This document shows positions 3,672 through 37,251 of a stretch of 40,671 nt of DNA, one piece after another. The stretch is from Alphaproteobacteria bacterium (lineage in GTDB: Bacteria > Pseudomonadota > Alphaproteobacteria > Rs-D84). Positions within the stretch are counted from its first letter, which is position 1. Each line of letters begins with the position of its first letter. The position numbers and the translations under genes were made by a program. The notes under the pieces are model-generated. The model made no database searches. It saw nothing but the letters and a program-made list of their open reading frames with translations, and was not told the origin of the DNA. Location: NCBI GenBank assembly GCA_009783855.1, contig WRCO01000010.1, positions 1 to 40,671 of the forward strand, in the 5' to 3' direction.

Positions 3672-6600
3672 GATAGCAAGCATCTGCTGTTCGCCGCCGG
3701 CGTTCTCCGCAAGCAGGCGTTCGGCCTTTTCTTCTTCTTTCGCGATTTCGCGAACCCGCCGCACGTATGCGCCGGTTCCGACGGGGATAAGGCGGCCAAC
3801 CATAAGGTTTTCGTTAATGCCGACCAATTTGTCCGTAGACCCGCCAATCGCCGCATCCACCAAGACCTTTGTCGTCTGTTGGAACGACGCGTTGGATATG
3901 AACGAACGCGACGTAAGCGATGCGCGCGTAAGTCCGACAAGAATGCGCGACGCTTCGGCCGGGCGACCGCCGTCTTTTATCACGCGTTCGTTTTCTTCTT
4001 CGAACACGACGCGGTCTATGACGTTGCCGGTAAGGAACACGGTATCGCCCGGATTTACGATTTCGACGCGGCGCGTCATTTCGCGGATAAGGATTTCAAC
4101 GTGCTTGTTGTTAATCGTCACGCCCTGAAGTCTGTAAACCTGTTGAATCTGTTCCACCATAAATTGCGCCAACGCTTTTTGGCCAAGTATGCGAAGGATG
4201 TCCTGCGGCACCGGGTCGCCGTCGACAATCTGGTCTGCTTTTTTCACGATGTCGCCCGCGCGGACAAGAAGATTGACGCCTTTTGCAATCGCGTATTCGA
4301 CCGGCATTGTCCCGTCCGCCGGAATTATGCGCACGATGATTTTCGATTTGCCTTCGTCTTCGATTTCGATTTCACCGTCGACTTCGGCAAGTATGGCGGG
4401 GCGGGAGCTGCGCCGAACTTCAAGCAATTCGTTGACGCGTGGAAGTCCCCCGGTAATGTCGCCCGTCTTTTTGACATCGACCGGTATACGCGCAAGCACG
4501 TCGCCTGCGTGAACATCCTGGCCGTCGGCCACCGAAAGAATCGCATACATGGGAAGCATGTATTCCGCAACCTTTTTTCCGCCAAGCGAAATCACTTCGC
4601 CGTTTTCGCCGACAAGCGATACGGACGGCGACAACGATTTCTTTGTCGCGGATTTCCAATTGGCGACCTTGCGCGTTGTGATTCCGGTCGTCGCGTCCAT
4701 ATCTTCGGAATACGACACGTTTTCGATTAAGTCGTTGAACTTTACCCGGCCGGATTTTTCCGCAAGTATGGTGTTGGAATACGGGTCCCATTCGGCAAGC
4801 TTGGCACCCTTTTCAACTTCCGCGCCATCATTTGCAAGCAGCATGGACGCATATGGAAGTTTTTGCGTAAACAGTTCCTTGCCCTTTTTGTCGACGACGG
4901 AAATCTTTCCGTTGCGCGACAAGACGACGATGCGGCCCGCGCTGTTTTGTATAGTATGAACGCCGTCAAGTTTGACAGTGCCCGCGGCGTGCGTTTCGAT
5001 AAAGTGCCCGGCCGCCGCGCCGCCCGTCGCAATTCCGCCAACGTGGAAGGTACGAAGCGTCAACTGGGTTCCCGGTTCGCCGATTGCCTGTCCCGCGATA
5101 ACGCCGACGGCTTCGCCGACATGGACAAGGGCGGACCGCGACAAGTCCATTCCGTAACATTTCGCGCAAAGTCCGTCGGACTGGCATGTAAGGACGCTGC
5201 GAATATCCGCGGACGGCACACCCGCCGCGTCGATTTCTTTTGCAAGAACCTTTGTCACGATATCATTGGTCGCGACAATTACTTTGCCGGTAATCGGATG
5301 TATGATGTCTTTGGCGGCGGTGCGGCCCAATATCACGCTTCCAAGCGATACGGAAAGAACGCTTCCGTTATAAATCGGCATCATGGCGACAAATTCCTTT
5401 GTCCCGCAATCGTGTTCGGTGATGACCGTGTTGTGGGCAAGCGATACAAGACGCCGGGTAAGGTATCCCGCTTCGGCGGTCTTAAGCGCGGTGTCGGCAA
5501 GGCCTTTGCGCGAACCGTGCGTCGACGTAAAGTATTCCGCCATGGTAAGGCCTTCTTTAAAGTTCGATATAATCGGAACTTCAATCAAATCGCCGGACGG
5601 CTTTTGCATAACGCCGCGCATTCCGGCAAGCTGGCGTATCTGGGCGGGAGAACCGCGGGCGCCGGAGTCGGCCATCATTATGATGCTGTTCCAATAAAAG
5701 CCGTTAAGTTTGCGCATGTTTGTAAATGCAAGTTCGCCAAGTTTATCGGTGACCCGCTGCCACATGTCGGTGATTTTGTTATACCGTTCGCCGTGCGATA
5801 TAAGTCCGTTCTGGTACTGTGATTCGATTTCTTCGACGTGCTTTTCGCCGTCCGCTATCATCTTTTGCTTTTCTTCCGGAATCACGATGTCGGCGAATCC
5901 GATGGATATTCCGCTGCGCGCGGCCTGTTCGAATCCGGTGTCTTTAAGGCCGTCGGAAAGGATAATCATATCCTTGTCCCCGCAATGTTCGTAAACCGCT
6001 TCCATAAGTTGCTCGATTTGCGGACGTCCCATCGGCTTGTTGACAAGGTCGAACGCAATGCCCGGTTTTTTCGGCAAAAGTTCGCCAAGCATCATGCGGC
6101 CCGCGGTGGTCTTTACGGTAACGGTGCCGTCCGCGCCGCTCCAGCGCGCGACAATCGGTTCGTGAAGCCGGATGGCCCGGTTATGCAGCGCAAGTTTGAT
6201 TTCATCCATATTCGCAAAGCGCGGCGAATTGTCCTCGTGCTCGCCTTCCATAAGCGAAAGGTAATACACGCCAAGCACCATGTCCTGTGACGGCACGATG
6301 ACCGGTTTTCCGGATGCGGGCGACAGAACGTTATTGGACGCAAGCATCAATGTGCGCGCTTCCAATTGCGCTTCCAACGAAATCGGGACGTGCACGGACA
6401 TCTGGTCGCCGTCAAAGTCGGCGTTGAAACCCTGGCACACAAGCGGGTGCAGACGGATGGCCTTCCCTTCGATAAGGACCGGGTCGAACGCAAGAACGGA
6501 AAGACGGTGAAGCGTCGGCGCGCGGTTTAACAGTACCGGATGCTGGTGCACGACTTCGCCAAGGATTTCCCAAACGATGTCTTCGCCCGCTTCGACCATT

Positions 6601-7796
6601 TTTCTTGCGGTCTTTAATGTGTTGGCGTAATCGCCGGCAAGAAGGCGTGCGAACACGAACGGCTTGAACAGTTCAAGCGCCATCATTTTCGGAAGGCCAA
6701 CCTGGTGCAATTTAAGCGTCGGGCCCGACACGATTACAGAGCGGCCGGAATAATCGACGCGTTTGCCAAGAAGATTCTGACGGAACCGTCCGGTTTTTCC
6801 AATCAAGGAATCCGACAGCGATTTCAAAGGCCGGCGGTTTTGCGAAACAAGCGGACGCGTTTTGTGCCCGTTGTCGAACAGCGCGTCGACCGCTTCTTGA
6901 AGCATTCTTTTTTCGTTGCGGATGATGATTTCCGGCGCGTGAAGGTCGGCAAGCTTTTTCAAACGGTTGTTGCGGATGATGACGCGGCGGTACAAATCGT
7001 TAAGGTCGGATGCCGCGACATGGCCCGCATCAAGAGTGACCAAAGGACGCATATCAGGCGGGATAACCGGCAATACGTCGGGAAGCATCCACGCGGGTTC
7101 CGTCTTGGAATCCATGAACGATTCGACCAATTTCAAATGCTTTACGATTCCCTTGCGCTTTGCTTCGGATTTCGTTTCGGTAAGTTCGGCGCGCAAGCGG
7201 GTGCGTTCGTCGCCCATGTCCATATTCGCGATGACTTCGCGCACGCCCTCTGCGCCGATGCCGACGCGGAACGCGTCCGGCCCGTGTTCTTCCAAAGCGG
7301 CCTGATATTCGTCTTCGCTGATTACGTCGAACAGTTTAAGGTTGGTAAGACCCGGCTCCGTCACGATATAGGCGTCGTAATAAATAACCTGTTCAAGCTT
7401 TTTCTGCGGCAGATTGTTCAGAAGGGTCGCAATCTTTCCTTCGCGCAGGAACCATGTGTGCGATACGGGCGTGGCAAGCTTGATATGACCCATGCGTTCG
7501 CGGCGCACGGCGGATGCGCCGACTTCGACGCCACAGCGTTCGCAAACGACGCCGCGGAATTTTATGCGTTTGTATTTTCCGCACGCGCATTCGTAATCCT
7601 TGCTTGGCCCGAATGTCACCTGACAGAACAGTCCGTCCGATTCCGGTTTCATGGAATGGTAATTGATTGTTTCGGGCTTTTTGACTTCGCCGAACGACCA
7701 CGACAGGATTTCTTCGGGCGATGCGATTTTTATCTGCAGCGCGTCGAACTGTTCCTTGGTTTCAATCTGTCCGAAAATTTTCTGAAGCATATTCAT
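3669..7796 (-). CDS. rpoC: DNA-directed RNA polymerase subunit beta'
   Basis: RpoC is the catalytic large subunit of RNA polymerase. Visible landmarks: the N-terminal zinc site CACG...CERCG near residues 70-88, the conserved clamp and lid regions, the magnesium-binding NADFDGDQM near residue 460, and the second zinc site with [12 protein letters not shown]. The length of 1375 residues matches alphaproteobacterial RpoC. The start at 7796 has a good SD (AAGGAG). It follows rpoB after an 82-base gap that contains a GGTGGCT-type repeat hairpin, and it is followed by the HAD, pyrE and pyrF genes. No inserted repeat is apparent inside the reading frame. Confidence 0.98.
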
Positions 7797-14671: not shown

Positions 14672-14688
14672 TTTACAACTCCGTTGTA

Positions 14689-14797
14689 GGCGCCGGGCAC
14701 TAGGCACTAGTTATCCAGCAGTTAGAGTTTGTGGTGCGACATTGGCGTATCTACCACGTCTTTCGGCGCTTTCACCGGTGCCCGGTGCCTGGCGCCT
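14689..14797. repeat. GGCACTA-type inverted heptamer element between nusG and rplK
   Basis: GGCGCCGGGCACTAGGCACT at the left end faces CCGGTGCCCGGTGCCTGGCG at the right end; the outermost GGCGCC pair is exact. A separate perfect 11-base stem CCCAACAAAAT/ATTTTGTTGGG with 5-base loop follows at 14814-14840. Confidence 0.7.
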
Positions 14798-14813
14798 CGG
14801 CGCGCCCCCGGGT

Positions 14814-14840
14814 CCCAACAAAATCTGCGATTTTGTTGGG
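14814..14840. repeat. Perfect 11-base stem-loop near the nusG stop
   Basis: CCCAACAAAAT, CTGCG loop, ATTTTGTTGGG. It lacks a T run, so it is not a simple terminator. A diverged sequence with the same CGGGTCCC flank lies at about 29892-29930. Confidence 0.6.
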
Positions 14841-14852
14841 CGGGCTTCGCGC

Positions 14853-15371
14853 CTAAACTTTTTCGACCTGACTGAAATCCAATCCGACCGATGTTTCCCG
14901 CCCGAATACCAAAACCGTGACGGTCATTTTTTGTTTTATATTGTCGACTTCGGACGCGATGCCGTTAAAATTCGCAAACGGTCCGTCGATGATGTGTATT
15001 TCCTGTCCGACTTCGTATTCGGCATCCGATAATGCCGGGCCTTCTTCTATTTGTTTCATAAGGCGGCGCGCTTCCGTTTCGGAAATCGGAACCGGTTTGT
15101 TTTTCTGGCCAAGGAACATGACGACCTGTGGCATTAATTTCACAAGCGAGAATGTTTCATCGGTCATCGTCATCTGGACGACAATGTATCCCGGGAAAAA
15201 TTTCTTTTCCGTCTTGACGCGCTTGCCGGCTTTGATTTCCGTGATTTCGCGCGTGGGGACAAGTATTTCGCCAAACAAAGGATTAAGTTTGGCCGCGTCG
15301 ATTTTTTCGCGCAGCTCTTTTGCGACCTTGTTTTCGCATCCCGTGTGAACATTGACGATGTACCAGTTCAT
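14853..15371 (-). CDS. nusG: Transcription termination/antitermination factor NusG
   Basis: NusG binds RNA polymerase and modulates pausing and Rho termination. The 172-residue protein opens with MNWYIVNVHTGCENKVA (NGN domain) and ends with a KOW domain (VGQEIHIIDGPFANFNG near residues 120-137). I start it at 15371; a longer reading to 15419 would translate the GGCACTA repeat and is unlikely. The SD is weak. It follows secE, separated by the repeat at 15394-15472. Confidence 0.96.
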   Translation of the reverse strand: MNWYIVNVHTGCENKVAKELREKIDAAKLNPLFGEILVPTREITEIKAGKRVKTEKKFFPGYIVVQMTMTDETFSLVKLMPQVVMFLGQKNKPVPISETEARRLMKQIEEGPALSDAEYEVGQEIHIIDGPFANFNGIASEVDNIKQKMTVTVLVFGRETSVGLDFSQVEKV

Positions 15372-15393
15372 TTTTTGCTCGCTTTGCTTCGCA

Positions 15394-15472
15394 GGCACTA
15401 GGCACTGGGCACTAGGCACTATTTTTCATCTCTGCACCGGACACTAGTGCCTAACGCCTAGTGCCCGGTGCC
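15394..15472. repeat. GGCACTA-type inverted heptamer element between secE and nusG
   Basis: Four tandem units (GGCACTA, GGCACTG, GGCACTA, GGCACTA at 15394-15421) face inverted units (TAGTGCC, GCCTAGTGCC, GGTGCC at 15445-15472). It fills the whole gap and touches the secE stop codon. Confidence 0.8.
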
Positions 15473-15652
15473 TCAAAATATCATTCCGACCAACCAATTC
15501 AATATGCTGTCGATAAAAAACAGGAACAACGATACCAATCCTGCGAATATGAATATCATGATGGTGGCGCGGACGGTCGCTTCGCGCGATGGCCACACTA
15601 TTTTGAACCATTCAAGACGGACCGCTTTGATGTATTCGAATGCTTTTTTCAT
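15473..15652 (-). CDS. secE: Protein translocase subunit SecE
   Basis: SecE is the small membrane subunit that clamps SecY. The 59-residue protein has an amphipathic helix with the conserved E-x3-V-W-P (RLEWFKIVWPSREA) followed by a single transmembrane helix, the usual short SecE form. I start at 15652 (MKKAFEY); an upstream in-frame TTG at 15676 has no proper binding site. It lies between tRNA-Trp and nusG, its standard place. Confidence 0.93.
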   Translation of the reverse strand: MKKAFEYIKAVRLEWFKIVWPSREATVRATIMIFIFAGLVSLFLFFIDSILNWLVGMIF

Positions 15653-15943: not shown

Positions 15944-16025
15944 TGCAAGGGAAAAATGGTGGCTGGTGACTGATAAATATTACGAACCGCCAACCACCGG
16001 CACCAGCCACCATTTTTCCCTTGCA
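15944..16025. repeat. Long perfect inverted repeat with GGTGGCT core
   Basis: Positions 15944-15968 and 16001-16025 are exact reverse complements over 25 bases; the loop is 32 bases. The inner half of each arm is the GGTGGCT heptamer unit; the outer half (TGCAAGGGAAAAA) is specific to this copy. The right arm supplies TTGCA of the putative -35 box of the following virB8-like gene. Confidence 0.8.
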
Positions 16026-16050
16026 CCGCCCTTTGTTTTTCTTCTAATAT
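16021..16050 (+). promoter_or_regulatory. Putative promoter of the virB8-9-10 operon
   Basis: TTGCAC at 16021-16026, an 18-base spacer and TAATAT at 16045-16050 lie just before the first start codon. The -35 box overlaps the end of the 25-base inverted repeat. Confidence 0.45.
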
Positions 16051-16078
16051 GCCCACTGCAGAGGGGGAAAAGGAGAAA

Positions 16079-16771
16079 ATGAAGACCATCGAACCGCCGG
16101 CATTAATGTCAAGAATCATAACTTTTGTTTTCGCGGGCGCTCTTGCGACGACGATTGTTTTGGCCGTGACTTTGGCCAATCTTATGCCGCTTCACAGGAC
16201 CCAGGTTTTCTTCCTTACCACCCAGCTTCGCGAAAACACGGTCGTTCGTCTTGAATCGTTTTCCGTTTCGGAATCAAACATCGGAATTTACAAGGAAAAT
16301 TTCATCAAAGAATACATCCGGATGCGGAATGAAATTGTCCCCGCTATCTCTGCAATGCACACGCGGTGGGGTCGCGGACCCGGCGGACTTGTCAATCTTT
16401 GGTCAAGCAACGCGGTCTTTGCGGACTTCATGGACACAAGCATGTGGATTGCGATAATGAACGCGGACGAAGATACCGGATGGCGGTGCCGGGTTGAATT
16501 CACAAGACCTATCCAGCCATATCGCATTGCCGCCCAAAACGACGAAAGACAATTGTCGGAACACCGCGTAAGTTTTCGCTATTTTTGCGCCGATAATACT
16601 GGACAGACCGACCCGGAAGATTATACAATCGTCATAGGAATCGAATTTCAGCCGGCGATAAGATGGTTCGACCGGTTGGAAAATCCGCTTGGTCTTATCG
16701 TGTCAGAGTACCGCGTAGAAGCCGGTCGCCGCGACCCGCTTGACCAATTCGATTTCTTGATAAGAAGGTAA
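16079..16771 (+). CDS. VirB8-like type IV secretion inner-membrane protein
   Basis: VirB8 proteins are bitopic inner-membrane scaffold proteins of type IV secretion systems with a periplasmic NTF2-like domain. The 230-residue protein has a short cytoplasmic tail, one transmembrane helix at about residues 11-33, and a periplasmic domain ending with RWFDRLENPLGLIVSEYRVE, the family's NPxG-type motif. The start at 16079 has AAGGAG 4 bases upstream; 16049 is an alternative without a site. The next gene, a VirB9 homologue, begins 16 bases after its stop, which supports the call. A DotI/IcmL-type member of the same fold is possible but less likely, because the neighbours are VirB9- and VirB10-like. 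Confidence 0.82.
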   Translation: MKTIEPPALMSRIITFVFAGALATTIVLAVTLANLMPLHRTQVFFLTTQLRENTVVRLESFSVSESNIGIYKENFIKEYIRMRNEIVPAISAMHTRWGRGPGGLVNLWSSNAVFADFMDTSMWIAIMNADEDTGWRCRVEFTRPIQPYRIAAQNDERQLSEHRVSFRYFCADNTGQTDPEDYTIVIGIEFQPAIRWFDRLENPLGLIVSEYRVEAGRRDPLDQFDFLIRR

Positions 16772-16787
16772 GGAAAGGAAGATGCTC

Positions 16788-18293
16788 ATGAAAAAAATTA
16801 TGCTGTCTGTTTTGTGTTTGGCGCTTTTTGCGCCTGATGCGCGCGCCAACGTTCAAACCGCATGGAACAATCCGAACGCGAACATGGCGCCGGGCTCTGC
16901 CCGCCCCGGTTTTGCACAGCTTACCTGGTCGCCCGGAACCGTCATGCCGATAAGGCTTCGAAGCGGCATGGTCACGATGATTAATCTTCCCATGGGCGAA
17001 GTTGTCGAAGACGCGACCGTCGGCAATACAGGCTTGTTCCAAGCCGAACTTCAAGGCGGCGGACGCACCATAATGCTTACGCCCGAACCGTCCAATCAGG
17101 GTTCCGACACCAACCTTATCGTTACGGGAAGGTCCGGAAACGTATATCTGTTTTATCTGCGAAGCGAGCCTGCGAATTCGCCGGAAATATCATATTCGAA
17201 AGTGGACATCACTCTTGACGGCAACGCGCACATGCCGATGGCAGGCGGAATGAACGCGCCGCAAACCGGCGGTATGAATTCCTTATTCCCGCGGCGGGGC
17301 GCCGGCGGAGGAGTCGGGGGACTTTCGCCCGCAGGCGAAGATTTCGGATGGATACAGACTATGAAAATCGACCCGTCGGAATTTCGTTTCGACCTTGACA
17401 TATTTGTTCCGAATCCGGACGACTATGTGATTGCGCCGGAGCGCGTGTGGCGCGACCGCATATTCACCTATATCGACTTTGGCGACAAGGTTATCGCGAT
17501 GACACAGCGGCCGGTTGTATCGATACTTATCGAAGGCGGCGAAAGCCCGGTCGGATTCAGAACGGACGGCGAACACGGAAGATTGATAATCGTCGAAGCC
17601 GTCGGCGATATGGTGCTTCGCAGCGGACAGCGTTTGGTATGTATCAAGAAGCGCTCGCGGCCGTTCCTTGTCGCGGACACGGCAAGCGTCATGAGATTGG
17701 CCGAAGCCAACGTGATGCAAAGCATGTTCAGCAACCAGTCGTTGAACAACGTCGTATTTGGCGGAATGCCGATGATGCCCGCTCCGGGTATGGTTGGTCA
17801 TCCGATGATGCCGGGCATGGGCGGCGGAATGCCGATGATGCCGATGCAACCGCAACAGCCGATGATGATGCCGCAACAATTCGCGCCACAGGGCGGCGGC
17901 GGCGGTCGCGGGATGAATATGATTCCACAGGAAAGGACCACTGCGGGCTCGTTCCTTCCGCAAAGCAATATACCGCTGATTCGAAGCAACCAGGTCGGCG
18001 TCGCGGTGGAATTGCGGTCGGACACATCGGTTAAAGCGCTTAACGATTATTGGACGCGCCTGCTTGCGCAGTTCAGCGGGGACGAAGGCGCGGGATTGTT
18101 AAACCCGTACCGTGACATGGTATTCTTCGCGGTCGATGAACAGGGGGTCGGCGATTTGGGCGCATCCGGCAACACGGCGCGCCTGTACCGTTTGCGCATC
18201 GGACCGCTGTCCAACATAGACGAGGCCCAGGTTCTCTGCGACCATCTGCAAAGATTCCGGTCCATCCCATGCCATGTGGTGAGGGTACAATAG
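16788..18293 (+). CDS. VirB9-like T4SS outer-core protein with C-terminal SPOR domain
   Basis: VirB9/TrbG proteins form the periplasmic/outer-membrane core ring with VirB7 and VirB10. The 501-residue protein has a signal peptide (MKKIMLSVLCLALFAPDARA, cut before NV) and a VirB9-like region at about 25-300 (for example VVEDATVGNTGLF and VWRDRIFTYIDFGDK). A Met/Gly/Pro/Gln-rich linker spans about 323-380. From about 400 to the end is a SPOR domain with YRLRIGPLSNIDEAQVLCDHL; SPOR domains bind denuded septal peptidoglycan. I prefer the start at 16788, correctly spaced from AAGGAAG, over 16782. VirB9 normally ends without SPOR, so this is an unusual fusion. Confidence 0.85.
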   Translation: MKKIMLSVLCLALFAPDARANVQTAWNNPNANMAPGSARPGFAQLTWSPGTVMPIRLRSGMVTMINLPMGEVVEDATVGNTGLFQAELQGGGRTIMLTPEPSNQGSDTNLIVTGRSGNVYLFYLRSEPANSPEISYSKVDITLDGNAHMPMAGGMNAPQTGGMNSLFPRRGAGGGVGGLSPAGEDFGWIQTMKIDPSEFRFDLDIFVPNPDDYVIAPERVWRDRIFTYIDFGDKVIAMTQRPVVSILIEGGESPVGFRTDGEHGRLIIVEAVGDMVLRSGQRLVCIKKRSRPFLVADTASVMRLAEANVMQSMFSNQSLNNVVFGGMPMMPAPGMVGHPMMPGMGGGMPMMPMQPQQPMMMPQQFAPQGGGGGRGMNMIPQERTTAGSFLPQSNIPLIRSNQVGVAVELRSDTSVKALNDYWTRLLAQFSGDEGAGLLNPYRDMVFFAVDEQGVGDLGASGNTARLYRLRIGPLSNIDEAQVLCDHLQRFRSIPCHVVRVQ

Positions 18294-18356: not shown

Positions 18357-20906
18357 ATGAACAAAATAAAACAAAAGTTCGCCGAATTCAGACAGAGCAC
18401 TCCCATCCATGTGCAGTGGTTGCTTTTGGCGGCCGCGTTTCTTGTTGTATTTATTCTGTTGCTTCTTCTTTTGTCCGGACGGGGCAGTCCGGCTGCCGGC
18501 AACCGCGATGCACAGGTTGCAATACTTTCAATCAACCCTTCAAGGGTTGAATGGCGGAATACTCCCACAGGCGATGCGCGCGAACAAAGAATCGTCGTAT
18601 CGTCAACTGTCGACACTATCATCACAGACGTAAGGATTTCCGGAATCGACGACCCGTCGGCGATTGGTCTGTCGCGCCTGTCTACTTGTGAAAACATGGG
18701 GCGGATTTCGCATAATGTTTCGTGCCGGATTACGTTAAATTGGCGCCCGACCATACCTTTGGACAACACGGACCTTGAAATCCGGATAACATACCACGCG
18801 GCAAGCCAATCGGCGGAAATGGCGAATATGGAGGTTATACCGGTGCTGCTCTCAACACATGGCGGCAGGCTTGTTGCAAACGATAGGGAGGGCACAGAAG
18901 ACTTACAGGATTTTGACAACTTCACAGGCGATGCATTCCTTGACAACATATTCGGCGGCACAGACGACTTTAATAATGACGACGATTGGAATTTCATACC
19001 GCCGTCGTTGAACGATGATTGGGATTTCGACCCGCTGTCATTCCCATTGCCCGCGCCGCTGGAACCTTTGCCGTTTCCCCTTCCCGCGCCAGAACCTATA
19101 TTCACAGGCTTTGCGCCCGCGCCCGTTTTCAACGATTGTCTTGAATTCGCATTTCCGGGATATAATCTTTCGGGCGCGCAAAACGGCTGGATACGGCCAA
19201 GCGCCGGACGCTATCTGTTCCATCCGTTCGGGGACAGCGAATGCACAAATCCGATTGGCGTGTATAACATCAACACCGGCATGATTTCGGACATCGCGAA
19301 TCCCGGAACAATTATCGGAACCGACGCGGACCGTATCGGTCACCGCTCATTTTTTGCAAATAATACGGGGTTGCCCGGCCTTGCGCCAAGTCCGCGGACG
19401 GCGCGTGCGCAAAACCGCGCCGCACCGGCGATGGGTATGCCGGCGGCTCCATTGGCAAGGGGTGGCCGCCTTCGGGATGAAAACGGCAATCCGGTTAACT
19501 TTGGTGCACGGACAACCCGCACTTTCCGACCGACATCCGTACATGCCGACGAACAAGGGTCCGGAAGACACGCCACCATATCAAGCCTTCCGATTGACCG
19601 TACTTTTGTCCTGCGCCAGTACAAGCCGATACCGGCAACCATAGTCAACGAAGTCCGCGCCGACGCCCGCACCATGGGTCCCGGCCCCGGCAATATGGGC
19701 CGCCTGCCGGTTATGGCGACTGTGGACCGCAATGTATTCGCCGACAACGGCCGCACTATCATACTGCCCGCCGGAACACAAATGATGGGGTATGTTACGG
19801 GCGAACTTCCGGGGCCATACCGGACCATTGGCCGGATGCAGATAAACTGGTACCGCTTTATCCGCCCGGATAACGTCGAATTCAATTTTCAACAAAGCGA
19901 CAACCGGCCATTTGCGGCGGACGCCCAGGGTCGCACCGGCGTGCCCGGCCGCGGTTCGACGGATTATATCGAAAGCATGATAATGCCGATGATGACCGCT
20001 TTGGTACCGGCGGCTGTCAACCTTATCGCGCCGATATCGGACCGCTTTGTAAACCAGATAGACCTTGACAACAATACCGTAACCCAAACCGGCACGGTAC
20101 GGTCAAGCGAACTTGCCAAACAAGAAATCATATCGTCATGGAACCAGGTTGTTCAAAGACTGGTCCTTGATATGATGGACAATACCACGCCGCCGTTTTC
20201 GATTGCGGCCGGAACAAGAATCACGGTATTTTCGCCGACGGACCTGGTTGTTACATGCGCGGATGCCGATGCCGACCCCAATGCCGACCCGCGCAGTTGC
20301 GCCATGGTTGCTCCAAATATGGAGTATGCGGATTTTCGCCCGAGCGAAGTGCAATTGGTTGCGAACTTTGACAACGTTTCGGACTGGATGGGTCAGGTGC
20401 GCTCGCTTAACGTAAGGATGGACGGCCTTTGCGAAACAGACTTTAACGGCAACTTTACCGGTCGGCCGGTCACCGACGCACACCGGCTGGCGGCAGAGCG
20501 TGGCATAGATTTCCGCGCGGTTGTCTTCCATTGCCAATCGGGTCAGTTCCAGGCAATGAACAACGTCCGCTGGAACCAGTTCTTTAATCAACAACACCAA
20601 CTGGGCCAAGGCAACCAGGTTGGCATGACGCAAATGCCCGGTCTGCAGCCACAGCAACCAATATTCTCGCCGGAATTCCAACAGAACCAACTGGGGATGC
20701 AGGTGCATCCGGAAACCGGTCTGTTGCTGAACCCGTTTGCTCCGCTTCCGCCGCCGCCGCCCGGACCCGCTGTTCTTCTTTGCGAAGACGGAACGCATCC
20801 GGACTCGAACGGCTGTTGCACCGGCGAAATACTTACCGATATGGGTGATTTGGGGATGAATTGCTGTCCGGTTACCGGCGGCGATTGTTTCCCGCCATTG
20901 CAATAA
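18357..20906 (+). CDS. VirB10-like T4SS core protein with long periplasmic insert and Cys-rich tail
   Basis: VirB10/TrbI proteins span both membranes and link the inner-membrane complex to the outer pore. The 849-residue product has a 20-residue cytoplasmic tail, one transmembrane helix (about 21-40), a beta-rich region to about 150, an Asp/Pro-rich linker (about 178-252), then the VirB10 domain at about 440-640 (TVDRNVFADNGRTIILPAGT, later IAAGTRITVFSPTDLVV). A Gln-rich stretch follows, and the last 45 residues hold a cluster of seven or more Cys (GCCTGEI, NCCPVTGGDC). Typical VirB10 is about 400 residues, so half is extra. The start at 18357 lacks an SD because a repeat sits upstream; translation may use a start inside the repeat (TTG at 18297). 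Confidence 0.82.
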   Translation: MNKIKQKFAEFRQSTPIHVQWLLLAAAFLVVFILLLLLLSGRGSPAAGNRDAQVAILSINPSRVEWRNTPTGDAREQRIVVSSTVDTIITDVRISGIDDPSAIGLSRLSTCENMGRISHNVSCRITLNWRPTIPLDNTDLEIRITYHAASQSAEMANMEVIPVLLSTHGGRLVANDREGTEDLQDFDNFTGDAFLDNIFGGTDDFNNDDDWNFIPPSLNDDWDFDPLSFPLPAPLEPLPFPLPAPEPIFTGFAPAPVFNDCLEFAFPGYNLSGAQNGWIRPSAGRYLFHPFGDSECTNPIGVYNINTGMISDIANPGTIIGTDADRIGHRSFFANNTGLPGLAPSPRTARAQNRAAPAMGMPAAPLARGGRLRDENGNPVNFGARTTRTFRPTSVHADEQGSGRHATISSLPIDRTFVLRQYKPIPATIVNEVRADARTMGPGPGNMGRLPVMATVDRNVFADNGRTIILPAGTQMMGYVTGELPGPYRTIGRMQINWYRFIRPDNVEFNFQQSDNRPFAADAQGRTGVPGRGSTDYIESMIMPMMTALVPAAVNLIAPISDRFVNQIDLDNNTVTQTGTVRSSELAKQEIISSWNQVVQRLVLDMMDNTTPPFSIAAGTRITVFSPTDLVVTCADADADPNADPRSCAMVAPNMEYADFRPSEVQLVANFDNVSDWMGQVRSLNVRMDGLCETDFNGNFTGRPVTDAHRLAAERGIDFRAVVFHCQSGQFQAMNNVRWNQFFNQQHQLGQGNQVGMTQMPGLQPQQPIFSPEFQQNQLGMQVHPETGLLLNPFAPLPPPPPGPAVLLCEDGTHPDSNGCCTGEILTDMGDLGMNCCPVTGGDCFPPLQ

Positions 20907-20930: not shown

Positions 20931-21038
20931 AACTGACAATTATGGCCCTTGTCGCGCTTTGCGCGACATTTCTATTGCAAGAATCGCTTTGCGATTTTTG
21001 GCATCCGGTTGTTAGTTGTTAGCTGTTAGTTGTCAGTT
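20931..21038. repeat. GTTAGTT-type inverted heptamer element before dnaX
   Basis: AACTGACA at 20931-20938 and TGTCAGTT at 21031-21038 close the element. Inside are palindromes with AAA/TTT loops (GTCGCGCTTTGCGCGAC; AATCGCTTTGCGATT) and four tandem units GTTAGTT, GTTAGCT, GTTAGTT, GTCAGTT. It closely resembles 23775-23896. Confidence 0.75.
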
Positions 21039-21046
21039 TTTTTCAT

Positions 21047-21074
21047 TTGCAACCACCATATTTTCTGCTATCCT
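21047..21074 (+). promoter_or_regulatory. Putative dnaX promoter
   Basis: TTGCAA at 21047-21052, a 16-base spacer and TATCCT at 21069-21074, with TG one base before the -10 (extended -10). The dnaX start is 27 bases downstream. Confidence 0.4.
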
Positions 21075-21100
21075 TCCCGCGACAAAAATAAGAGAAGGAT

Positions 21101-22453
21101 ATGACAGAAAATTATACCGTACTTGCGCGGAAATACCGCAGCCAGGATTTTGATTCGCTTATCGGCCAAGATGTTCTGGTAAAGACCCTGACCACCGCTA
21201 TATCGACCTCTCGCATTGCGCACGCGTATATGTTCACCGGCATACGCGGCACCGGGAAAACAAGCGTCGCGCGCATACTTGCGAAATCGTTGAATTGCCT
21301 GTCGTCACAGGCGGCGACCGCAAAGCCCTGCGGCACTTGCGAAAACTGCACCGCCATCGCTTTGGGACAGCATATAGACGTTCTTGAAATCGACGCGGCA
21401 TCGCACACCGGCGTCGACAATATCCGCGACATTACGGATGCGGCGGGATACCGCCCGACCAACGGCCGGTACAAGGTTTATATAATCGACGAAGTTCACC
21501 AGTTGTCGCAAAGCGCGTTCAACGCGCTCCTTAAAACTTTGGAAGAGCCGCCCGCGCACGTGGTGTTCATGCTTGCCACGACGGAAATAAGAAAGGTCCC
21601 GGTGACGATACTCTCGCGGTGTCAGCGCTTTGATTTGTGCCGCGTTTCCGCAACCGAATTAAAAAAACATTTCGCATGGATTGCGACGCAAGAAAACGTA
21701 AAACTGTCCGACGATGCGAACGAAATGCTTGCCCGCGCGGCGGACGGGTCCGTCCGCGACGGCCTGTCACTGTTTGACCAGGCAATCGCGCAAACCGGCG
21801 GCAACGTCGACCATGTGGCGGTGCTTAACATGCTTAAACGCGCGGACCGCGGCGTGGTTGTCGATTTTATGAAAATACTTCTTGCGGGCGATGTCGCGGC
21901 CGCAATCGGACGCGCGGACGAATTGTATCAAAGCGGCGCCGACCTTTCGCTTATGCTGCAAGATATGATGGAATGGACGCATTGGGCGACGCGCATGCAT
22001 CCCGCTTTGCGCGCGGGCGACGCGCACGCCGCGCCGTTCTCCGCGGACCAGCGCGAGGCCATAATAAAATCAATGGACGGCGTGACGGTCAACACATTGT
22101 CGCGCCTGTGGCAGGTTATGGTGGCATCGGTTGAAGAAATGCAGAAATCGACAAACCAGAAACAGTGTTTCGACATGCTTGTCGTGCGGCTTATGCGTGT
22201 TGCGGATATGCCGACTGTTGCAACTTTGTTGCAACAGAATGATGAAAGTGGAATCAAGAATATTGAACCCGGCGCAACAAACATAAAAAAAACAGACATT
22301 GTACAAAATAATACGCCGACGGAACCCGTGCAACAACAAGGCGTTCAGCATTCAACACTCGACGCGGCGGCGCCCGCCGCCGCGGTATCCGCCGACCCGA
22401 TGCTTGCGAACGCATTGGACATGTTCGCCGGCGCACAGGTAATTACAAACTAA
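21101..22453 (+). CDS. dnaX: DNA polymerase III subunit gamma/tau
   Basis: DnaX is the ATPase of the clamp loader. The 450-residue protein has Walker A GIRGTGKTS at 47-55, the zinc cysteines Cys66, Cys77, Cys80 and Cys83, Walker B DEVH at about 130-133, and the SRC motif near 171-175. Domain III follows to about 370. The rest is a low-complexity Gln/Ala-rich tail, shorter than the tau tail of E. coli. An A8 run at 22285-22292 gives the slippery sequence A-AAA-AAA in frame; a -1 shift there would end translation after six more codons, yielding about 403 residues, a gamma-like product. A copy of the ATTCAGC heptamer encodes GVQHSTL near the C-terminus. Confidence 0.95.
   Translation: MTENYTVLARKYRSQDFDSLIGQDVLVKTLTTAISTSRIAHAYMFTGIRGTGKTSVARILAKSLNCLSSQAATAKPCGTCENCTAIALGQHIDVLEIDAASHTGVDNIRDITDAAGYRPTNGRYKVYIIDEVHQLSQSAFNALLKTLEEPPAHVVFMLATTEIRKVPVTILSRCQRFDLCRVSATELKKHFAWIATQENVKLSDDANEMLARAADGSVRDGLSLFDQAIAQTGGNVDHVAVLNMLKRADRGVVVDFMKILLAGDVAAAIGRADELYQSGADLSLMLQDMMEWTHWATRMHPALRAGDAHAAPFSADQREAIIKSMDGVTVNTLSRLWQVMVASVEEMQKSTNQKQCFDMLVVRLMRVADMPTVATLLQQNDESGIKNIEPGATNIKKTDIVQNNTPTEPVQQQGVQHSTLDAAAPAAAVSADPMLANALDMFAGAQVITN
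22285..22311 (+). other. Possible -1 frameshift site in dnaX
   Basis: Eight A residues at 22285-22292 are read ATA AAA AAA ACA. After a -1 shift the ribosome would read AAC AGA CAT TGT ACA AAA TAA, stopping at 22309-22311. This resembles the programmed slip that makes gamma from dnaX in several bacteria. No clear downstream hairpin or upstream SD-like stimulator is visible. Transcriptional slippage is an alternative mechanism. Confidence 0.45.
22343..22360. repeat. ATTCAGC-type heptamer inside dnaX
   Basis: GTTCAGC, ATTCAAC, ACTC read in frame as VQHSTL. Same unit type as the intergenic copy at 82-115. Confidence 0.5.
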
Positions 22454-22597
22454 CAACTAATAACTAAGAACTAGAGACTGACCTGTCCGATATATTGGAC
22501 AACGGATAAAACGAGAAACAAGATGTCCACTATAGTGGACAAGCATTAGTACGGGCACGGTTATTAGTTTTTAGTTAAAAGTAAAAAAGGCTTCAAC
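22454..22597. repeat. dnaX-pilin spacer with heptamers and two palindromes
   Basis: It begins with TAACAACTAATAACTAAGAA heptamer units, then the imperfect palindrome TGTCCGATATATTGGACA (22484-22501) and the perfect palindrome TGTCCACTATAGTGGACA (22524-22541), then TTAGTTTTTAGTT units. The two palindromes share the GTCC...GGAC ends and resemble the one at 41-60. Confidence 0.6.
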
Positions 22598-23080
22598 ATG
22601 ACCAAAAACCACATCCTCAACGAATCCGGTCGCTCACTCATAGAGGTGGTAAGCGCGCTTGCCATCGGCGCCGTTCTTATCGCCGCGACATTCCAGATTT
22701 ACCAGACCGTTGCATCGCGACAGGCGCGCGTCATGGCGACCGAAGAACTTCGCATTATCGCCCGCGATGCGAAAACTCTGTTCGCGGGCCGCGGCGGCGA
22801 CTATACCGGCATATCCGTGGACCATCTGATAAAAATGCGCGCGCTTAATTCCGACCGGCCGCCGCGCATTGCAAAAAGTTTCAGCCTTGCCGCCGCACCG
22901 GAATGGGAGGGATTCTTCATCAACCTGTACGGTCTTAATTTTTCCGATTGCGCGTGGATATCGGCCGTGCGCTTTGATTGGGCAATCGGCGTCATCGTAA
23001 ACGACAACGTGGACGGCGACGATATTGACGACATTTGCAAACGCGGACATGAAAACAAAGCCGCGATAGTTGTAAGATAG
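22598..23080 (+). CDS. Type IV prepilin-like protein
   Basis: The N-terminus has a class III (prepilin peptidase) signal: a short polar leader ending in Gly11, then RSLIE with Glu at mature position 5, followed by a hydrophobic helix of about 20 residues. The rest (about 125 residues) is a pseudopilin-sized globular domain with one Cys pair candidate (FSDCAW and DDICKRG). This matches a type IVb/PilS-like pilin or a minor pseudopilin; which of these cannot be decided here. An AAAAGG binding site precedes the start. The OmpA-domain lipoprotein gene follows within about 20 bases, so the two are likely co-transcribed. Confidence 0.75.
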   Translation: MTKNHILNESGRSLIEVVSALAIGAVLIAATFQIYQTVASRQARVMATEELRIIARDAKTLFAGRGGDYTGISVDHLIKMRALNSDRPPRIAKSFSLAAAPEWEGFFINLYGLNFSDCAWISAVRFDWAIGVIVNDNVDGDDIDDICKRGHENKAAIVVR

Positions 23081-23188
23081 AGCACAGATGGAGCATGAAC
23101 AAATGTTAAAATTAGAAAATAACTTTTTCAGACCTGCAAAAGCATATCTATTATCTGTGCTCTATGCTCTGTGTTCTGTGCTCTTGCT
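23078..23188. repeat. TCTATGC-type inverted heptamer element spanning a start codon
   Basis: An inverted arm at about 23078-23098 (AGAGCACAGATGGAGCAT) faces tandem units TCTGTGC, TCTATGC, TCTGTGT, TCTGTGC at 23154-23181. The element contains the start codon and signal peptide of the following lipoprotein gene. Confidence 0.7.
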
Positions 23189-23774
23189 TTCATCCTGCGG
23201 CGGATATAAGACGCCGGAACGCGGCACATGGGATACCATTCTTCGCGGCGCAAGCTTTGGCACAATGACCGAAACCGCGCGCCGTGCGAAACAGCCTATA
23301 TACCAAGGCGCGGGCGGCCGGGTCCTTTTGCCGCACGAAGTCGGCCCGTATATGGACACTTTGGAAGAAGAGCTTACCGACAACCTTCGTAAATTCGGAA
23401 TCCAAATATCGCGCGTCGGCGACGACGTCATGGTCGTAATCGTGCGGTCCGCATTCATGTCGGCGGACCATCCGGATATTTCGGACGAAGGCGTAGAAAC
23501 CCTTCGCACCGTGTCCCGCGCGCTTGCGCGGTTCGACCGCACATGGATAGAAATCGCGGGATACAGCGACGCAATGACCGACCAGAACGCCGCAACAAGG
23601 TTCAGTTTTGACATGGCGGAACGCGTCGCGCTGTTTTTGGCACAGCACAGGGTAAAGACCCTTCGGATGTTTGTTGTCGGCCGCGGGTCCGCCCGCCCGA
23701 TTGCGGACCAAAGCAGTATGGGGCGGCAGATGAACAGGCGTGTGGAGCTTCGCATTTCTCCCATCGTAAAGTAA
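23103..23774 (+). CDS. OmpA-domain lipoprotein
   Basis: The 223-residue protein has a lipoprotein signal peptide with lipobox LSSC (Cys32), then an OmpA-like peptidoglycan-binding domain over about residues 100-220, with EIAGYSDAMTDQNAATRFS and the late RQMNRRVELRI arginine motif. Such proteins tie the outer membrane to the wall; OmpA-domain lipoproteins such as IcmN/DotK also occur in type IVB secretion systems. The start at 23103 has GGAG 9 bases upstream; 23088 is an alternative. Residues 18-27 (SVLYALCSVL) are encoded by TCTATGC heptamers, so part of the signal peptide derives from a repeat. It is followed by a repeat-bearing promoter region and the Skp-like gene. Confidence 0.85.
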   Translation: MLKLENNFFRPAKAYLLSVLYALCSVLLLSSCGGYKTPERGTWDTILRGASFGTMTETARRAKQPIYQGAGGRVLLPHEVGPYMDTLEEELTDNLRKFGIQISRVGDDVMVVIVRSAFMSADHPDISDEGVETLRTVSRALARFDRTWIEIAGYSDAMTDQNAATRFSFDMAERVALFLAQHRVKTLRMFVVGRGSARPIADQSSMGRQMNRRVELRISPIVK

Positions 23775-23896
23775 CCAACTGACAGCCGACAGCCAACAAC
23801 TGTCGCGTCGCGCAAAGCGCGGCAAATGATTGTAAAAATTACGTTGTAAGTTTTGACATCCGGTTGTTAGTTGTTGGTTGCCAGCTGTTAGTTTTT
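23775..23896. repeat. GTTAGTT-type inverted heptamer element
   Basis: CCAACTGACAGCCGACAGCC at the left faces GTTGTTAGTTGTTGGTTGCC at the right, around a GCGCAAAGCGC palindrome and an AT-rich middle. It starts right after the OmpA-lipoprotein stop codon and its right arm carries a -35 box. Confidence 0.7.
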
Positions 23897-23906
23897 CTGA
23901 TATAAT
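23878..23906 (+). promoter_or_regulatory. Promoter of the Skp-like gene, formed partly by a repeat
   Basis: TTGCCA at 23878-23883, a 17-base spacer and perfect TATAAT at 23901-23906. The -35 box is inside the GTTAGTT-type right arm; the -10 lies outside it. Confidence 0.65.
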
Positions 23907-26901: not shown

Positions 26902-29079
26902 ATGAAAAAACTTGCCCGCATTTTTGCCTTGTGCCTGTTGCCTCTGGCGGCGTCTGCCATGACGCAGAATCAACACAACCAGATGATGACGGCGCGCGGC
27001 ACGGGTCCGACCGCGAATTTCGGCAATTGCGACGCGCTTATACAGCGCTGTGCGGCGCCGCGTTGTGCCGGCGGCGCGTGCGCGAATATGCAGGTTGCGG
27101 TTGGAATTGTAAACGGCTGTGTGATGGCGAGCGAGCCTTGCCGCGGGTTCGGCGATGCGTTGGTGCAATCGATTGCGGCGCAAATGGTGGCAAGCGCGAC
27201 GGTCCGCGCGAACGAAGCCGGGGCGCAACAGGCCGCCGCCGCCGATGCCGCCGCCGCGCAACAGATGCAAATGATGCAGGCCGAAATGGTACAGCAAGCC
27301 GCGGCAACCGCCGCCCAAATGCAACAGATGCAGGCGGAAATGGCACGGGCCCAGGCGGAATCCGCCGCGCGCGTGGAACAGGCTTTGGTACAGCAGGCAG
27401 AAGCAGCCGCAGCCGCGCAAGCCGCCCAAATGCAACAGATGCAACCGGCACCGATCGCACATGCCGCACCGGTTCAGGCTTCGCCTGCGGGAACCATAGC
27501 GGCCCAGGTTGCCGCCGCGAATGAAATCGCCGCGGACGCCGTGGCACGCGCGCAATTGATGGGAATGATTAACACGGAACTTGACAATGTTCGCGCGGCG
27601 ATGCGGACGCTTGACGCCGTGATGCAAACAACATTCACTTACGCCGGATGCGACCAGCGGGGCGATAATTGCACCGGTCCGCGCCGCGTTGCGAGATTTC
27701 GGCAACACGCCACCGGCTTTTTCGATCCGTTTGACAATGTTCTTGACAGAATGCTTACGGCATTGGAATTGGCGCAAGCGCTTGGCATGGAAGTGGCGGA
27801 TATATACATGATGCTTTCCGGTTCATGCAACAGATGGGGAATGTATTGGTGCGATCAGGATTGCGTTGGCTTTGATATTGAAAATCCGCTGGCAAGTCGT
27901 ATGAACCCCCACCCACGCCATTCCGATCCGATTAATGAATCCTCCTGCAATTGCCGACTGGTGCGTCCGCTTGGCAGTCAAGAGGAAGTTATACAATCCA
28001 TGCTTGACATAAATACCGACTCGGCGTCCCAAGATGTACGCAACAGGGTCGGCTGTATGTCGACCGTGGCGCGCACCGGTGTGTTTGCACGGCATGCCCA
28101 AAGAAGGAATACCAATGCCCTTGATATCAGGGCCCTTGAACTTATGGTGACCACCGACCCGTCTTCGACATTTTGTATGCGGCCGGGCACAACCCCGCCC
28201 TTGGAGGGCGCGACCGTACCGCAAAGTCAGGGCATCCCAGACTGCAAAATTAATGCCAATCACTGTTCAATTGACAGTATAGAAGATATGATGGAAACTT
28301 TGCGCCAGATTACTCAAAGCAAAAATTTGCCGCCCAATGCCTGTATTTCAAGAAGGCAGGATATGTTTAATGTGAGTCACCCCCCTCTTGTCATAGCTGG
28401 GAATGACACTTGCACCGAAGGTCTGAACGCGGGCACATCAACCATTCATCCTGTCCTTGCATTGTGTTCCGTGCATGCGTGGAATGTAGGAAAAATTGAA
28501 AATCCGGGCATGGGAGATAGCACCCCGGGCACGTCCAGACCGGACACCACCGCAGAGCGCGAACAGATGAACGAAGTTATAAAGTTAAAATCAACCGTCA
28601 TCACACAGCAAATGCACCGGCAATATGAAATGCTGAACGCTCTTGTGCGACAGTTTGAAACTCAACTTCGCCGCGCCGCACTGGCTAACAACGACGCATC
28701 ACGCGAAGACCGCGGCAACCTGCCCGCCGGCCGTACACCCGGCGTCGTGCTTGCCGGTGCCCGCAATTGCGCCACCGAATGGGAACCTGTGGCAAGAGCC
28801 GAATGTATCATAGCCAACACGCGGCTTGCCTTAAATGCGCCTCCTGCCGATGCACGCCGGCAATTAGAGATAGAGTACCGACTGCTTAACCCGGGCACCG
28901 GCACCGGACCGATGTCAGATCGCTGTGGTGCTATGTCTCAATCATCGGCAACAATACAAGCATGCGCAAATCAGATTGGAAGTCTGGCTACTCAGCAACG
29001 TGATGAGGCGCGCAGAACTCAGAACCGTGGTGGTGGAAGCGGCGGAGTTAGGATTGTCGCTGACAGCGGCAACATGTAA
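26902..29079 (+). CDS. Large exported Ala/Gln-rich, Cys-rich protein of unknown function
   Basis: I do not recognise a named family. The 725-residue product has a signal peptide (MKKLARIFALCLLPLAASA). A Cys-rich module follows (about 34-76, with CDALIQRCAAPRCAGGACAN), then an Ala/Gln/Met-rich coiled coil (about 105-190). The middle holds a domain with CNRWGMYWCDQDC near residue 310 and further spaced Cys. The last 200 residues are helical with scattered Cys and a Gly-rich end. A perfect TATAAT promoter precedes it and a strong terminator follows, so it is monocistronic. It resembles in style the 736-residue product at 31927-34137 (signal peptide, low-complexity Ala region, paired Cys, large size); both may be periplasmic or surface proteins. 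Confidence 0.75.
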   Translation: MKKLARIFALCLLPLAASAMTQNQHNQMMTARGTGPTANFGNCDALIQRCAAPRCAGGACANMQVAVGIVNGCVMASEPCRGFGDALVQSIAAQMVASATVRANEAGAQQAAAADAAAAQQMQMMQAEMVQQAAATAAQMQQMQAEMARAQAESAARVEQALVQQAEAAAAAQAAQMQQMQPAPIAHAAPVQASPAGTIAAQVAAANEIAADAVARAQLMGMINTELDNVRAAMRTLDAVMQTTFTYAGCDQRGDNCTGPRRVARFRQHATGFFDPFDNVLDRMLTALELAQALGMEVADIYMMLSGSCNRWGMYWCDQDCVGFDIENPLASRMNPHPRHSDPINESSCNCRLVRPLGSQEEVIQSMLDINTDSASQDVRNRVGCMSTVARTGVFARHAQRRNTNALDIRALELMVTTDPSSTFCMRPGTTPPLEGATVPQSQGIPDCKINANHCSIDSIEDMMETLRQITQSKNLPPNACISRRQDMFNVSHPPLVIAGNDTCTEGLNAGTSTIHPVLALCSVHAWNVGKIENPGMGDSTPGTSRPDTTAEREQMNEVIKLKSTVITQQMHRQYEMLNALVRQFETQLRRAALANNDASREDRGNLPAGRTPGVVLAGARNCATEWEPVARAECIIANTRLALNAPPADARRQLEIEYRLLNPGTGTGPMSDRCGAMSQSSATIQACANQIGSLATQQRDEARRTQNRGGGSGGVRIVADSGNM

Positions 29080-34137: not shown

Positions 34138-34158
34138 GAAAATTTCCTTTCCAAGTTC

Positions 34159-34191
34159 ATGATATTTTATCATAAACCAAAGGAAAAACAA
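34159..34191 (-). promoter_or_regulatory. Putative promoter with palindromic -10 region
   Basis: On the minus strand TTGTTT (34186-34191), a 16-base spacer and TAAAAT (34164-34169). The -10 lies inside a perfect ATGATA-AAA-TATCAT inverted repeat (34159-34173). It would serve the gene starting at 34137. Confidence 0.4.
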
Positions 34192-36072: not shown

Positions 36073-36100
36073 ATTATAATGTCAAAACGCCGGTTTGCAA
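36073..36100 (-). promoter_or_regulatory. tig promoter
   Basis: On the minus strand TTGCAA (36095-36100), a 16-base spacer and perfect TATAAT (36073-36078), 27 bases before the tig start. Confidence 0.65.
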
Positions 36101-36147
36101 CTTTTTTATCCTTTACATATGCACCCATTTTTCAGTACATTATTGCC

Positions 36148-37251
36148 ATGCGAAAATTGGTCGTCTTTTTTGCCCTATGCCTTGTGCCCTTTGCCATATA
36201 TTCGTCGGAATATCGCGCTGCGATTGTCGCGGATATGGACACGGGTCAGGTTCTGTTTTCCCACCGCGCCGAAGACCTTAATTACCCGGCAAGCCTTACT
36301 AAATTGATGACCCTGTACCTTACGTTCGACGCGCTTTATAACGAACGCATCCGCCTTAACGACCAGATTATAGTTTCGCGGACTGCGGCGGCGGCGCCTC
36401 CTGTGAAACTTGGACTTGCGGCCGGGGCCAAAATATCGGTCGAAGATGCGATAAAAGCGGTCGCGGTGCACAGCGCGAACGACGTCGCGCGGGCTTTGGC
36501 GGAAAACCTTCGCGGCGGGCGCGAGGCTACGTTCGCATCAATGATGACGGACGTCGCGCGACAGATTGGCCTTACCCAGACCAACTTTGAAAACGCATCC
36601 GGCCTTCCCGACGACGACCATCTGTCGTCCGCGCGGGATATCGCGTTGCTTGCCATCGCGATACACCAGCATTTTCCCCAATATTGGCATTTTTTCGGTA
36701 TACGAAGCTGGACATACGGCGGCCGTACGTTTACCAACGGCAACCGGCTTTTGGCGTCATATCCTGGCGCGAACGGGATGAAGACGGGCTTTACGAACGC
36801 GGCGCGGTTTTGTCTTGTCGCGACGGCGCAAAGGGACGGGCGGAATATTGTCGCCGTGGTTTTGGGGTCGCCCAACCGGGATGTCCGCGCGAATGTCACG
36901 CGGCGATTGCTTGACCATGGATTCGGGGTTAATGGTGCAAATCCGGAACCGCGGCCGATAACGCCGGCGCCGCCGACAACGCCTGTGCCGGCCGCGGCGC
37001 GTGCCGCCACCCCTACGCCCGCCGCAAGACCGGCAAGCGGCGGTACAGGGGTCCAATTCGGCGCATTCGGAAGCCGCGCCGCCGCAGAGACCCAGGCCGG
37101 CCACGTGCGAAGAATCACGGGCCTGTCGCCAACCATAGAACAGGCCGGCGGCCTGCACCGCGTCCGTGCGCACGGCCTTTCGGAAAGCGCTGCGAATAAC
37201 GCATGCCGTAAATTCCGCGCACAAAATTTCGAGTGTTTTGTTTTCAGATGA
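36148..37251 (+). CDS. D-alanyl-D-alanine carboxypeptidase with C-terminal SPOR domain
   Basis: A periplasmic class C-type low-molecular-mass PBP that trims pentapeptides in peptidoglycan. The 367-residue protein has a signal peptide (MRKLVVFFALCLVPFAIYSS), the serine motif SLTK (Ser49, Lys52), SAN (Ser109-Asn111) and KTG (Lys212). A Pro/Ala-rich linker (about 265-295) leads to a SPOR domain (VQFGAFGSRAAAETQAGHV ... NNACRKFRAQNFECFVFR). I start at 36148 because it gives a proper signal peptide; no SD is visible, and an upstream in-frame start at 36079 is less likely. Its stop overlaps the recR start (ATGA), so dacA-recR-rsmA form a coupled set. Confidence 0.92.
   Translation: MRKLVVFFALCLVPFAIYSSEYRAAIVADMDTGQVLFSHRAEDLNYPASLTKLMTLYLTFDALYNERIRLNDQIIVSRTAAAAPPVKLGLAAGAKISVEDAIKAVAVHSANDVARALAENLRGGREATFASMMTDVARQIGLTQTNFENASGLPDDDHLSSARDIALLAIAIHQHFPQYWHFFGIRSWTYGGRTFTNGNRLLASYPGANGMKTGFTNAARFCLVATAQRDGRNIVAVVLGSPNRDVRANVTRRLLDHGFGVNGANPEPRPITPAPPTTPVPAAARAATPTPAARPASGGTGVQFGAFGSRAAAETQAGHVRRITGLSPTIEQAGGLHRVRAHGLSESAANNACRKFRAQNFECFVFR

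Follow-up and report, generated by a model that had tools for sequence, protein, structure and literature searches.

Little is understood about how the core rings of type IV secretion systems (T4SSs) are held in peptidoglycan or positioned on the cell, and one gene in the 40,671-nucleotide stretch analysed here (the window) raises the question of what a SPOR domain is doing on a ring subunit. The original prediction described a VirB9-like protein fused to a SPOR domain at 16788-18293, with a Met/Gly-rich linker, and proposed a domain search and a survey of related genomes. The fusion is borne out by profile matches and predicted fold. The gene lies in a single open frame (16782-18293, plus strand, 503 aa); the MKK at 16788 is the likely natural start, as first proposed, giving 501-503 aa. 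Residues are counted here from 16782. The parts of the gene are:

16788..18293, plus strand: virB9-SPOR gene, encoding a signal peptide, VirB9, a linker and a SPOR domain; the frame opens at 16782
16854..17219, plus strand: VirB9 N-terminal lobe, residues 25-146, with a CagX match, AlphaFold strands and a fold that matches the TrwF N-terminal domain (NTD) and X. citri VirB9
17334..17669, plus strand: VirB9 C-terminal lobe, residues 185-296, with a CagX match and family conservation
17670..17993, plus strand: flexible Met/Gly/Pro/Gln linker, residues 297-404, with a conserved helix at 297-320 and a conserved motif at 383-400
17994..18290, plus strand: SPOR domain, residues 405-503, from PF05036 in relatives, the AlphaFold model and fold search

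The linker of the window protein is about 108 residues long, and its 64-residue core contains 16 Met, 14 Gly, 12 Pro and 7 Gln, in keeping with the predicted composition. The stretch from the C-lobe to the SPOR domain ranged from 69 to 147 aa (median 104) in 25 homologues.

The VirB9 portion was readily recognised. Pfam CagX matched the window protein at 75.1 bits (E 8.9e-21) over residues 46-290, covering both lobes, with a curated cut-off of 34.2 bits, and it matched all 25 of the 25 homologues scanned. The NCBIfam VirB9 model matched at 1.1e-12, under its equivalog cut-off, and a PDB sequence search with the window protein ranked TrwF first, weakly. The full-length AlphaFold model had a mean pLDDT of 49.5 and was poor in the middle, leaving the VirB9 N-lobe and the SPOR domain as its only usable parts. 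Its ten best fold matches included X. citri VirB9 (3.2e-10), Dot/Icm T4SS chains, TrwF (NTD, target TM 0.78) and CagX, and the RlpA SPOR was also among the matches. The protein resembles the VirB9/TrwF/CagX family in its CagX match over both lobes, its signal peptide and the gene order virB8-virB9-virB10. Typical VirB9s are about 250-300 aa long and end after the C-lobe, whereas the window protein is extended by the linker and SPOR domain.

The SPOR portion scored less clearly in the window copy. Taken alone it gave 18.4 bits (E 0.0027, residues 464-497) with Pfam SPOR (PF05036), which has a cut-off of 21 bits, and 21.3 bits in a genome-level scan. PF05036 matched in 23 of 25 relatives, at best with 1e-7, and the SPOR strand-3 motif formed the C-terminal end in all 92 of the 92 distinct homologues collected. 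The AlphaFold model of residues 400-503 had a mean pLDDT of 78 and the order b-a-b-b-a-b, and a PDB fold search with it returned two RlpA SPOR crystal structures as the top two matches (E 6e-4 and 8e-4; probability 1.0 and target TM 0.66 for the best), with the DedD SPOR at rank 11. Searching PDB sequences with a profile of the SPOR alignment returned no SPOR. Despite the borderline score in the window copy, sequence and predicted fold together confirm the C-terminal domain as a SPOR domain. That it is no SPOR, and that the match arose by chance in a low-complexity tail, draws on the sub-threshold Pfam score and the empty profile search, but is extremely improbable and was rejected because of the relatives, the motif count and the RlpA fold match, with purifying selection on the domain also against it.

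The survey of related genomes found the same architecture in 48 of 60 close relatives. The host falls in the reduced-genome gut group of Candidatus Enterousia, order Rs-D84, and its nearest named relatives are metagenome-assembled genomes, many of them from guts (ruminants, birds and other animals) and several called Candidatus Enterousia. Candidatus Enterousia is assigned to this order, and its genomes are around 1 Mb or smaller (PMC12306168); that of the window measures 0.90 Mb, with a completeness of 93.7%. Across the Alphaproteobacteria the fusion was present in 20 of 385 sampled genomes, belonging to Rs-D84 and to families f8, f27, f37, f53, f56, f78 and f95, while the other VirB9s in this sample end without a SPOR domain. 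In total the fusion spans 13 alphaproteobacterial families. None was found outside the Alphaproteobacteria in 398 sampled Pseudomonadota genomes, where it occurred only in two genomes, both of the window's own family. Micavibrio was considered as a named carrier and rejected, as its genome paper reports no T4SS.

In a maximum-likelihood tree of the VirB9 core, one branch with support of 100/100 separated 32 proteins with a SPOR domain from 13 without. A single origin of the fusion fits this tree, because all the SPOR-bearing VirB9s lie on one side of that branch. The stem between the two groups is long (2.4 changes per site), and the nearest sisters without SPOR have tails of different composition. 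When SPOR domains were compared, VirB9-SPOR grouped with the alphaproteobacterial SPORs that bear a Cys pair and a Trp, a subtype common in the class, making a source local to the Alphaproteobacteria likely; the alignment is short, has little resolution and does not by itself prove one origin. One genome (G125) has three T4SSs, and the VirB9s of its two extra systems are plain, without SPOR. A wall-type domain inside the ring subunit itself appears to have been gained once and kept across the 13 families, and its carriers include gut bacteria whose genomes are close to 1 Mb in size.

The domain has been kept under constraint. Mean family identity was 0.96 in the VirB9 C-lobe, the most conserved part of the protein (96%), 0.77 in the SPOR domain, 0.71 in the N-lobe and 0.41 in the linker. 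Pairwise dN in the SPOR domain was about 0.07-0.22 where dS was at least 1 or saturated, much like the VirB9 N-lobe. The SPOR domain is under purifying selection; unlike it and the N-lobe, the linker drifts.

The gene is flanked by two others of the T4SS:

16049..16771, plus strand: virB8 (Pfam VirB8, 1.8e-8), directly upstream of virB9-SPOR
18357..20906, plus strand: virB10, 849 aa, likely ATG at 18357 (Pfam TrbI, 1.8e-16, residues 419-630)

This arrangement is widespread, with virB8 the upstream neighbour in 79 of 84 loci and virB10 the downstream neighbour in 73 of 84. In the window dnaX follows virB10, and the region upstream of virB8 contains a tRNA-Trp gene and, on the opposite strand, frames that are nusG-like and rplK-like by sequence. 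The T4SS genes of this genome are dispersed, since VirB3 and VirB4 (contig C1), VirD4 (C2) and VirB11 (C20) sit on separate contigs. VirB3, B4, B8, B9, B10, B11 and D4 were all found in the window's genome (G000); a VirB7-like lipoprotein was not seen in its incomplete assembly and is present in sister genomes. Judged by the components searched for in this genome, VirB3, B4, B7-B11 and D4, the system looks close to complete, with a VirB7-like protein in relatives.

The VirB7 candidate, so named for its size, lipobox and position, is a lipoprotein of 50-70 aa with the signature EPVGIGxDxxELKxSPCACxE. It is encoded directly upstream of virB8 in SPOR-bearing families outside Rs-D84 and also in the sisters without SPOR, and elsewhere in the genome in Rs-D84. 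One example next to virB8, on its upstream side, is L172:6347-6544, which has matches in about 20 other loci. We rejected the idea that SPOR is a general replacement for VirB7, as the lipoprotein occurs in families with and without SPOR alike. A mobile-element system was also rejected: the matches of a plasmid search, on 5 plasmids, covered only VirB9 and stopped short of the SPOR end. No PF03432 relaxase, the one relaxase family tested, was found in Rs-D84 genomes, and this absence, a weak test with a single family, fits a role in protein secretion. PADLOC gave no match.

VirB10 itself varies in the clade. The VirB10 (TrbI) proteins near VirB9-SPOR in f78, f95 and f53 are 1300-2350 aa long with up to 18 beta-flower repeats (PF21785), and f53 has a second large beta-flower protein with no TrbI match (the large proteins of these families lie at L172:8847-15890; L174:9882-16529; L170:1-3942 and 3908-7531). 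The end of the window VirB10, 20780-20906, is a Cys-rich tail (CEDGTHPDSNGCCTGEI...NCCPVTGGDCFPPLQ) past the TrbI domain. Further along, 23088-23774 encodes a protein of the OmpA family that resembles YiaD and Dot/Icm IcmN/DotK at sub-threshold scores; lying near the T4SS genes, it is possibly another wall anchor.

RlpA holds its glycan through Q270, R302, R309 and R311, and Phe274 stacks on MurNAc by a CH-pi contact; in FtsN and DamX, septal localisation declines when the homologous Gln is mutated (PMC6895207). The corresponding features of the window protein are:

18009..18011, plus strand: E410 codon, aligned with the glycan-contacting Gln (RlpA Q270, FtsN Q251, DamX Q351)
18189..18197, plus strand: R470-L471-R472 codons, retained equivalents of RlpA R309 and R311
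18237..18272, plus strand: invariant Cys pair of the SPOR domain, C486 and C497, possibly a disulfide

VirB9-SPOR shares the b-a-b-b-a-b fold and the strand-3 Arg pair with the SPORs of RlpA, FtsN, DamX and DedD, but Glu replaces the glycan-contacting Gln and there is no Phe or Tyr at the stacking position. Of 34 diverse VirB9-SPORs aligned, 33 carry Glu and one carries Asp at the Q270 equivalent, whereas in other SPOR domains this residue is Gln in 39 of 40 and Arg in the remaining one; the three other above-cut-off SPORs of the window's own genome keep Gln. At the Phe274 position, 36 of the 40 other SPORs have F, Y, L or V, and the 34 VirB9-SPORs have D, G, A, S, N or H, mostly Asp, Gly or Ser. 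R472 is invariant and R470 is His in 7 of 34, while the R302 equivalent falls in a variable loop, leaving two of the three pocket arginines. Trp424, the Cys pair and the strand-3 motif are invariant. Because the exchange of Gln for Glu or Asp and the loss of Phe are specific to the fusion and fixed across the 13 families, they point to altered function rather than decay. The window also encodes, at 36079-37251, a D-alanyl-D-alanine carboxypeptidase (Peptidase_S11) with its own SPOR domain, which keeps the canonical Gln and would suit as a control from the same genome.

When an outer-membrane ring subunit ends in a long flexible tail bearing a SPOR domain, the simplest role for that domain is a tether. 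We favour a lineage-specific tether that joins the T4SS ring to the cell wall through a remodelled SPOR site, a proposal that we regard as evenly balanced between acceptance and doubt. The T4SS would be of the VirB/VirD4 type, chromosomal and inherited vertically; the gene would encode its VirB9 ring subunit, and the SPOR domain on the flexible C-terminal tail of this subunit would tie the outer-membrane core ring to the wall. If the C-terminal lobe of VirB9 lies close to the outer membrane, as it does in core complexes of solved structure, the linker, with its median of 104 aa, could bring about a dozen SPOR copies per ring to the peptidoglycan, and contacts that were individually weak might sum up. 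This fits the recognition of both VirB9 and SPOR by profile and fold, the spread of the fusion in relatives and other families, the single branch in the tree, the constraint on the SPOR domain, its co-occurrence with T4SS genes, the plain VirB9s of the extra systems in G125, and the presence of an Amidase_3, a source of denuded glycan, in the genomes checked. Because the site is remodelled, with Gln changed to Glu, Phe mostly to Asp, Gly or Ser, and two arginines kept, classical denuded glycan bound in the classical geometry is probably not the ligand. In place of the Gln, a Glu should repel the carboxylate of MurNAc or neutralise the Arg patch, which speaks against standard glycan binding. 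The remodelled site may instead recognise an altered glycan or a wall-associated partner.

The same remodelling could mean that glycan binding has been lost and the fold co-opted to dock another part of the T4SS, such as the VirB10 extension, or an envelope protein. Both strand-1 side chains that contact glycan are replaced across the 13 families, the invariant Trp424, Cys pair and strand-3 motif describe a conserved but non-classical surface, and VirB10 is unusually elaborated in part of the clade. The retention of R472 and, with His in some families, R470 out of the three pocket arginines speaks against such docking, which we consider less likely than the tether yet a serious rival to it. 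A narrower form of the tether, which we hold as a rather doubtful suggestion from the site residues, is that in an entire alphaproteobacterial clade the T4SS ring carries a re-specialised Glu-type SPOR subfamily whose wall ligand is not denuded glycan but, for instance, strands that are de-N-acetylated or modified in some other way. If true, it would tie secretion to a particular wall state or site, and would represent a new class of SPOR ligand and a new way of positioning a T4SS.

Classical septal targeting, in which the SPOR domain would bind amidase-denuded glycan and put the T4SS at the division site, is improbable. Its ligand system is present: Amidase_3 enzymes are a source of denuded glycan, one was found per genome in 10 of 10 genomes checked, and the window's genome has three canonical Gln-bearing SPOR proteins. 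RlpA is the closest structure to the SPOR fold and the Arg pair is kept. However, Glu or Asp in 34 of 34 sequences against Gln in 39 of 40 elsewhere, and the loss of the stacking Phe, speak against it, and changes at this Gln lower the septal localisation of FtsN and DamX (PMC6895207). The original prediction had the SPOR domain tying the T4SS to peptidoglycan or to the septum; the link between ring and wall is still the likeliest role, while denuded glycan and the septum have lost ground with these two substitutions. The switch from Gln to Glu bears on whether SPOR domains have ligands beyond denuded glycan.

A wall tether built into a secretion ring has a precedent in Legionella, where a SPOR domain is predicted at the N terminus of LspD, the T2SS secretin (PMC9239104, PMC6617341). 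LspD too is an outer-membrane ring component with a fused SPOR domain, but the system is a T2SS, the carrier is unrelated, and its SPOR is N-terminal, whereas in VirB9-SPOR the domain follows a long C-terminal linker. Secretion machines have further wall anchors: SciZ/TagL (T6SS), OutB and GspA (T2SS) and the AMIN domains of PilQ (PMC9239104). These share the proposed role of holding a trans-envelope machine in peptidoglycan; their domains are unrelated, and in the literature found no VirB9 ring subunit contains one. The terms 'VirB9' and 'SPOR domain' gave no match together in the literature searched, which left out most subscription papers, and no such protein was apparent from the titles and abstracts returned for 'SPOR domain' with 'type IV secretion'. 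The layout is non-standard for a VirB9, as had been supposed.

The window has other features around these genes. Between genes, at 15944-16025, 14687-15473 and 20974-23901, there are inverted and direct repeats built from short degenerate units (GGTGGCTGGTG, GGCACTAGGCACTAG, GTTGTTAGTTGTTAG), and a stretch resembling them lies between virB9 and virB10. Two large open reading frames, 26902-29079 (725 aa) and 31927-34191 (754 aa), are without a significant Pfam match.
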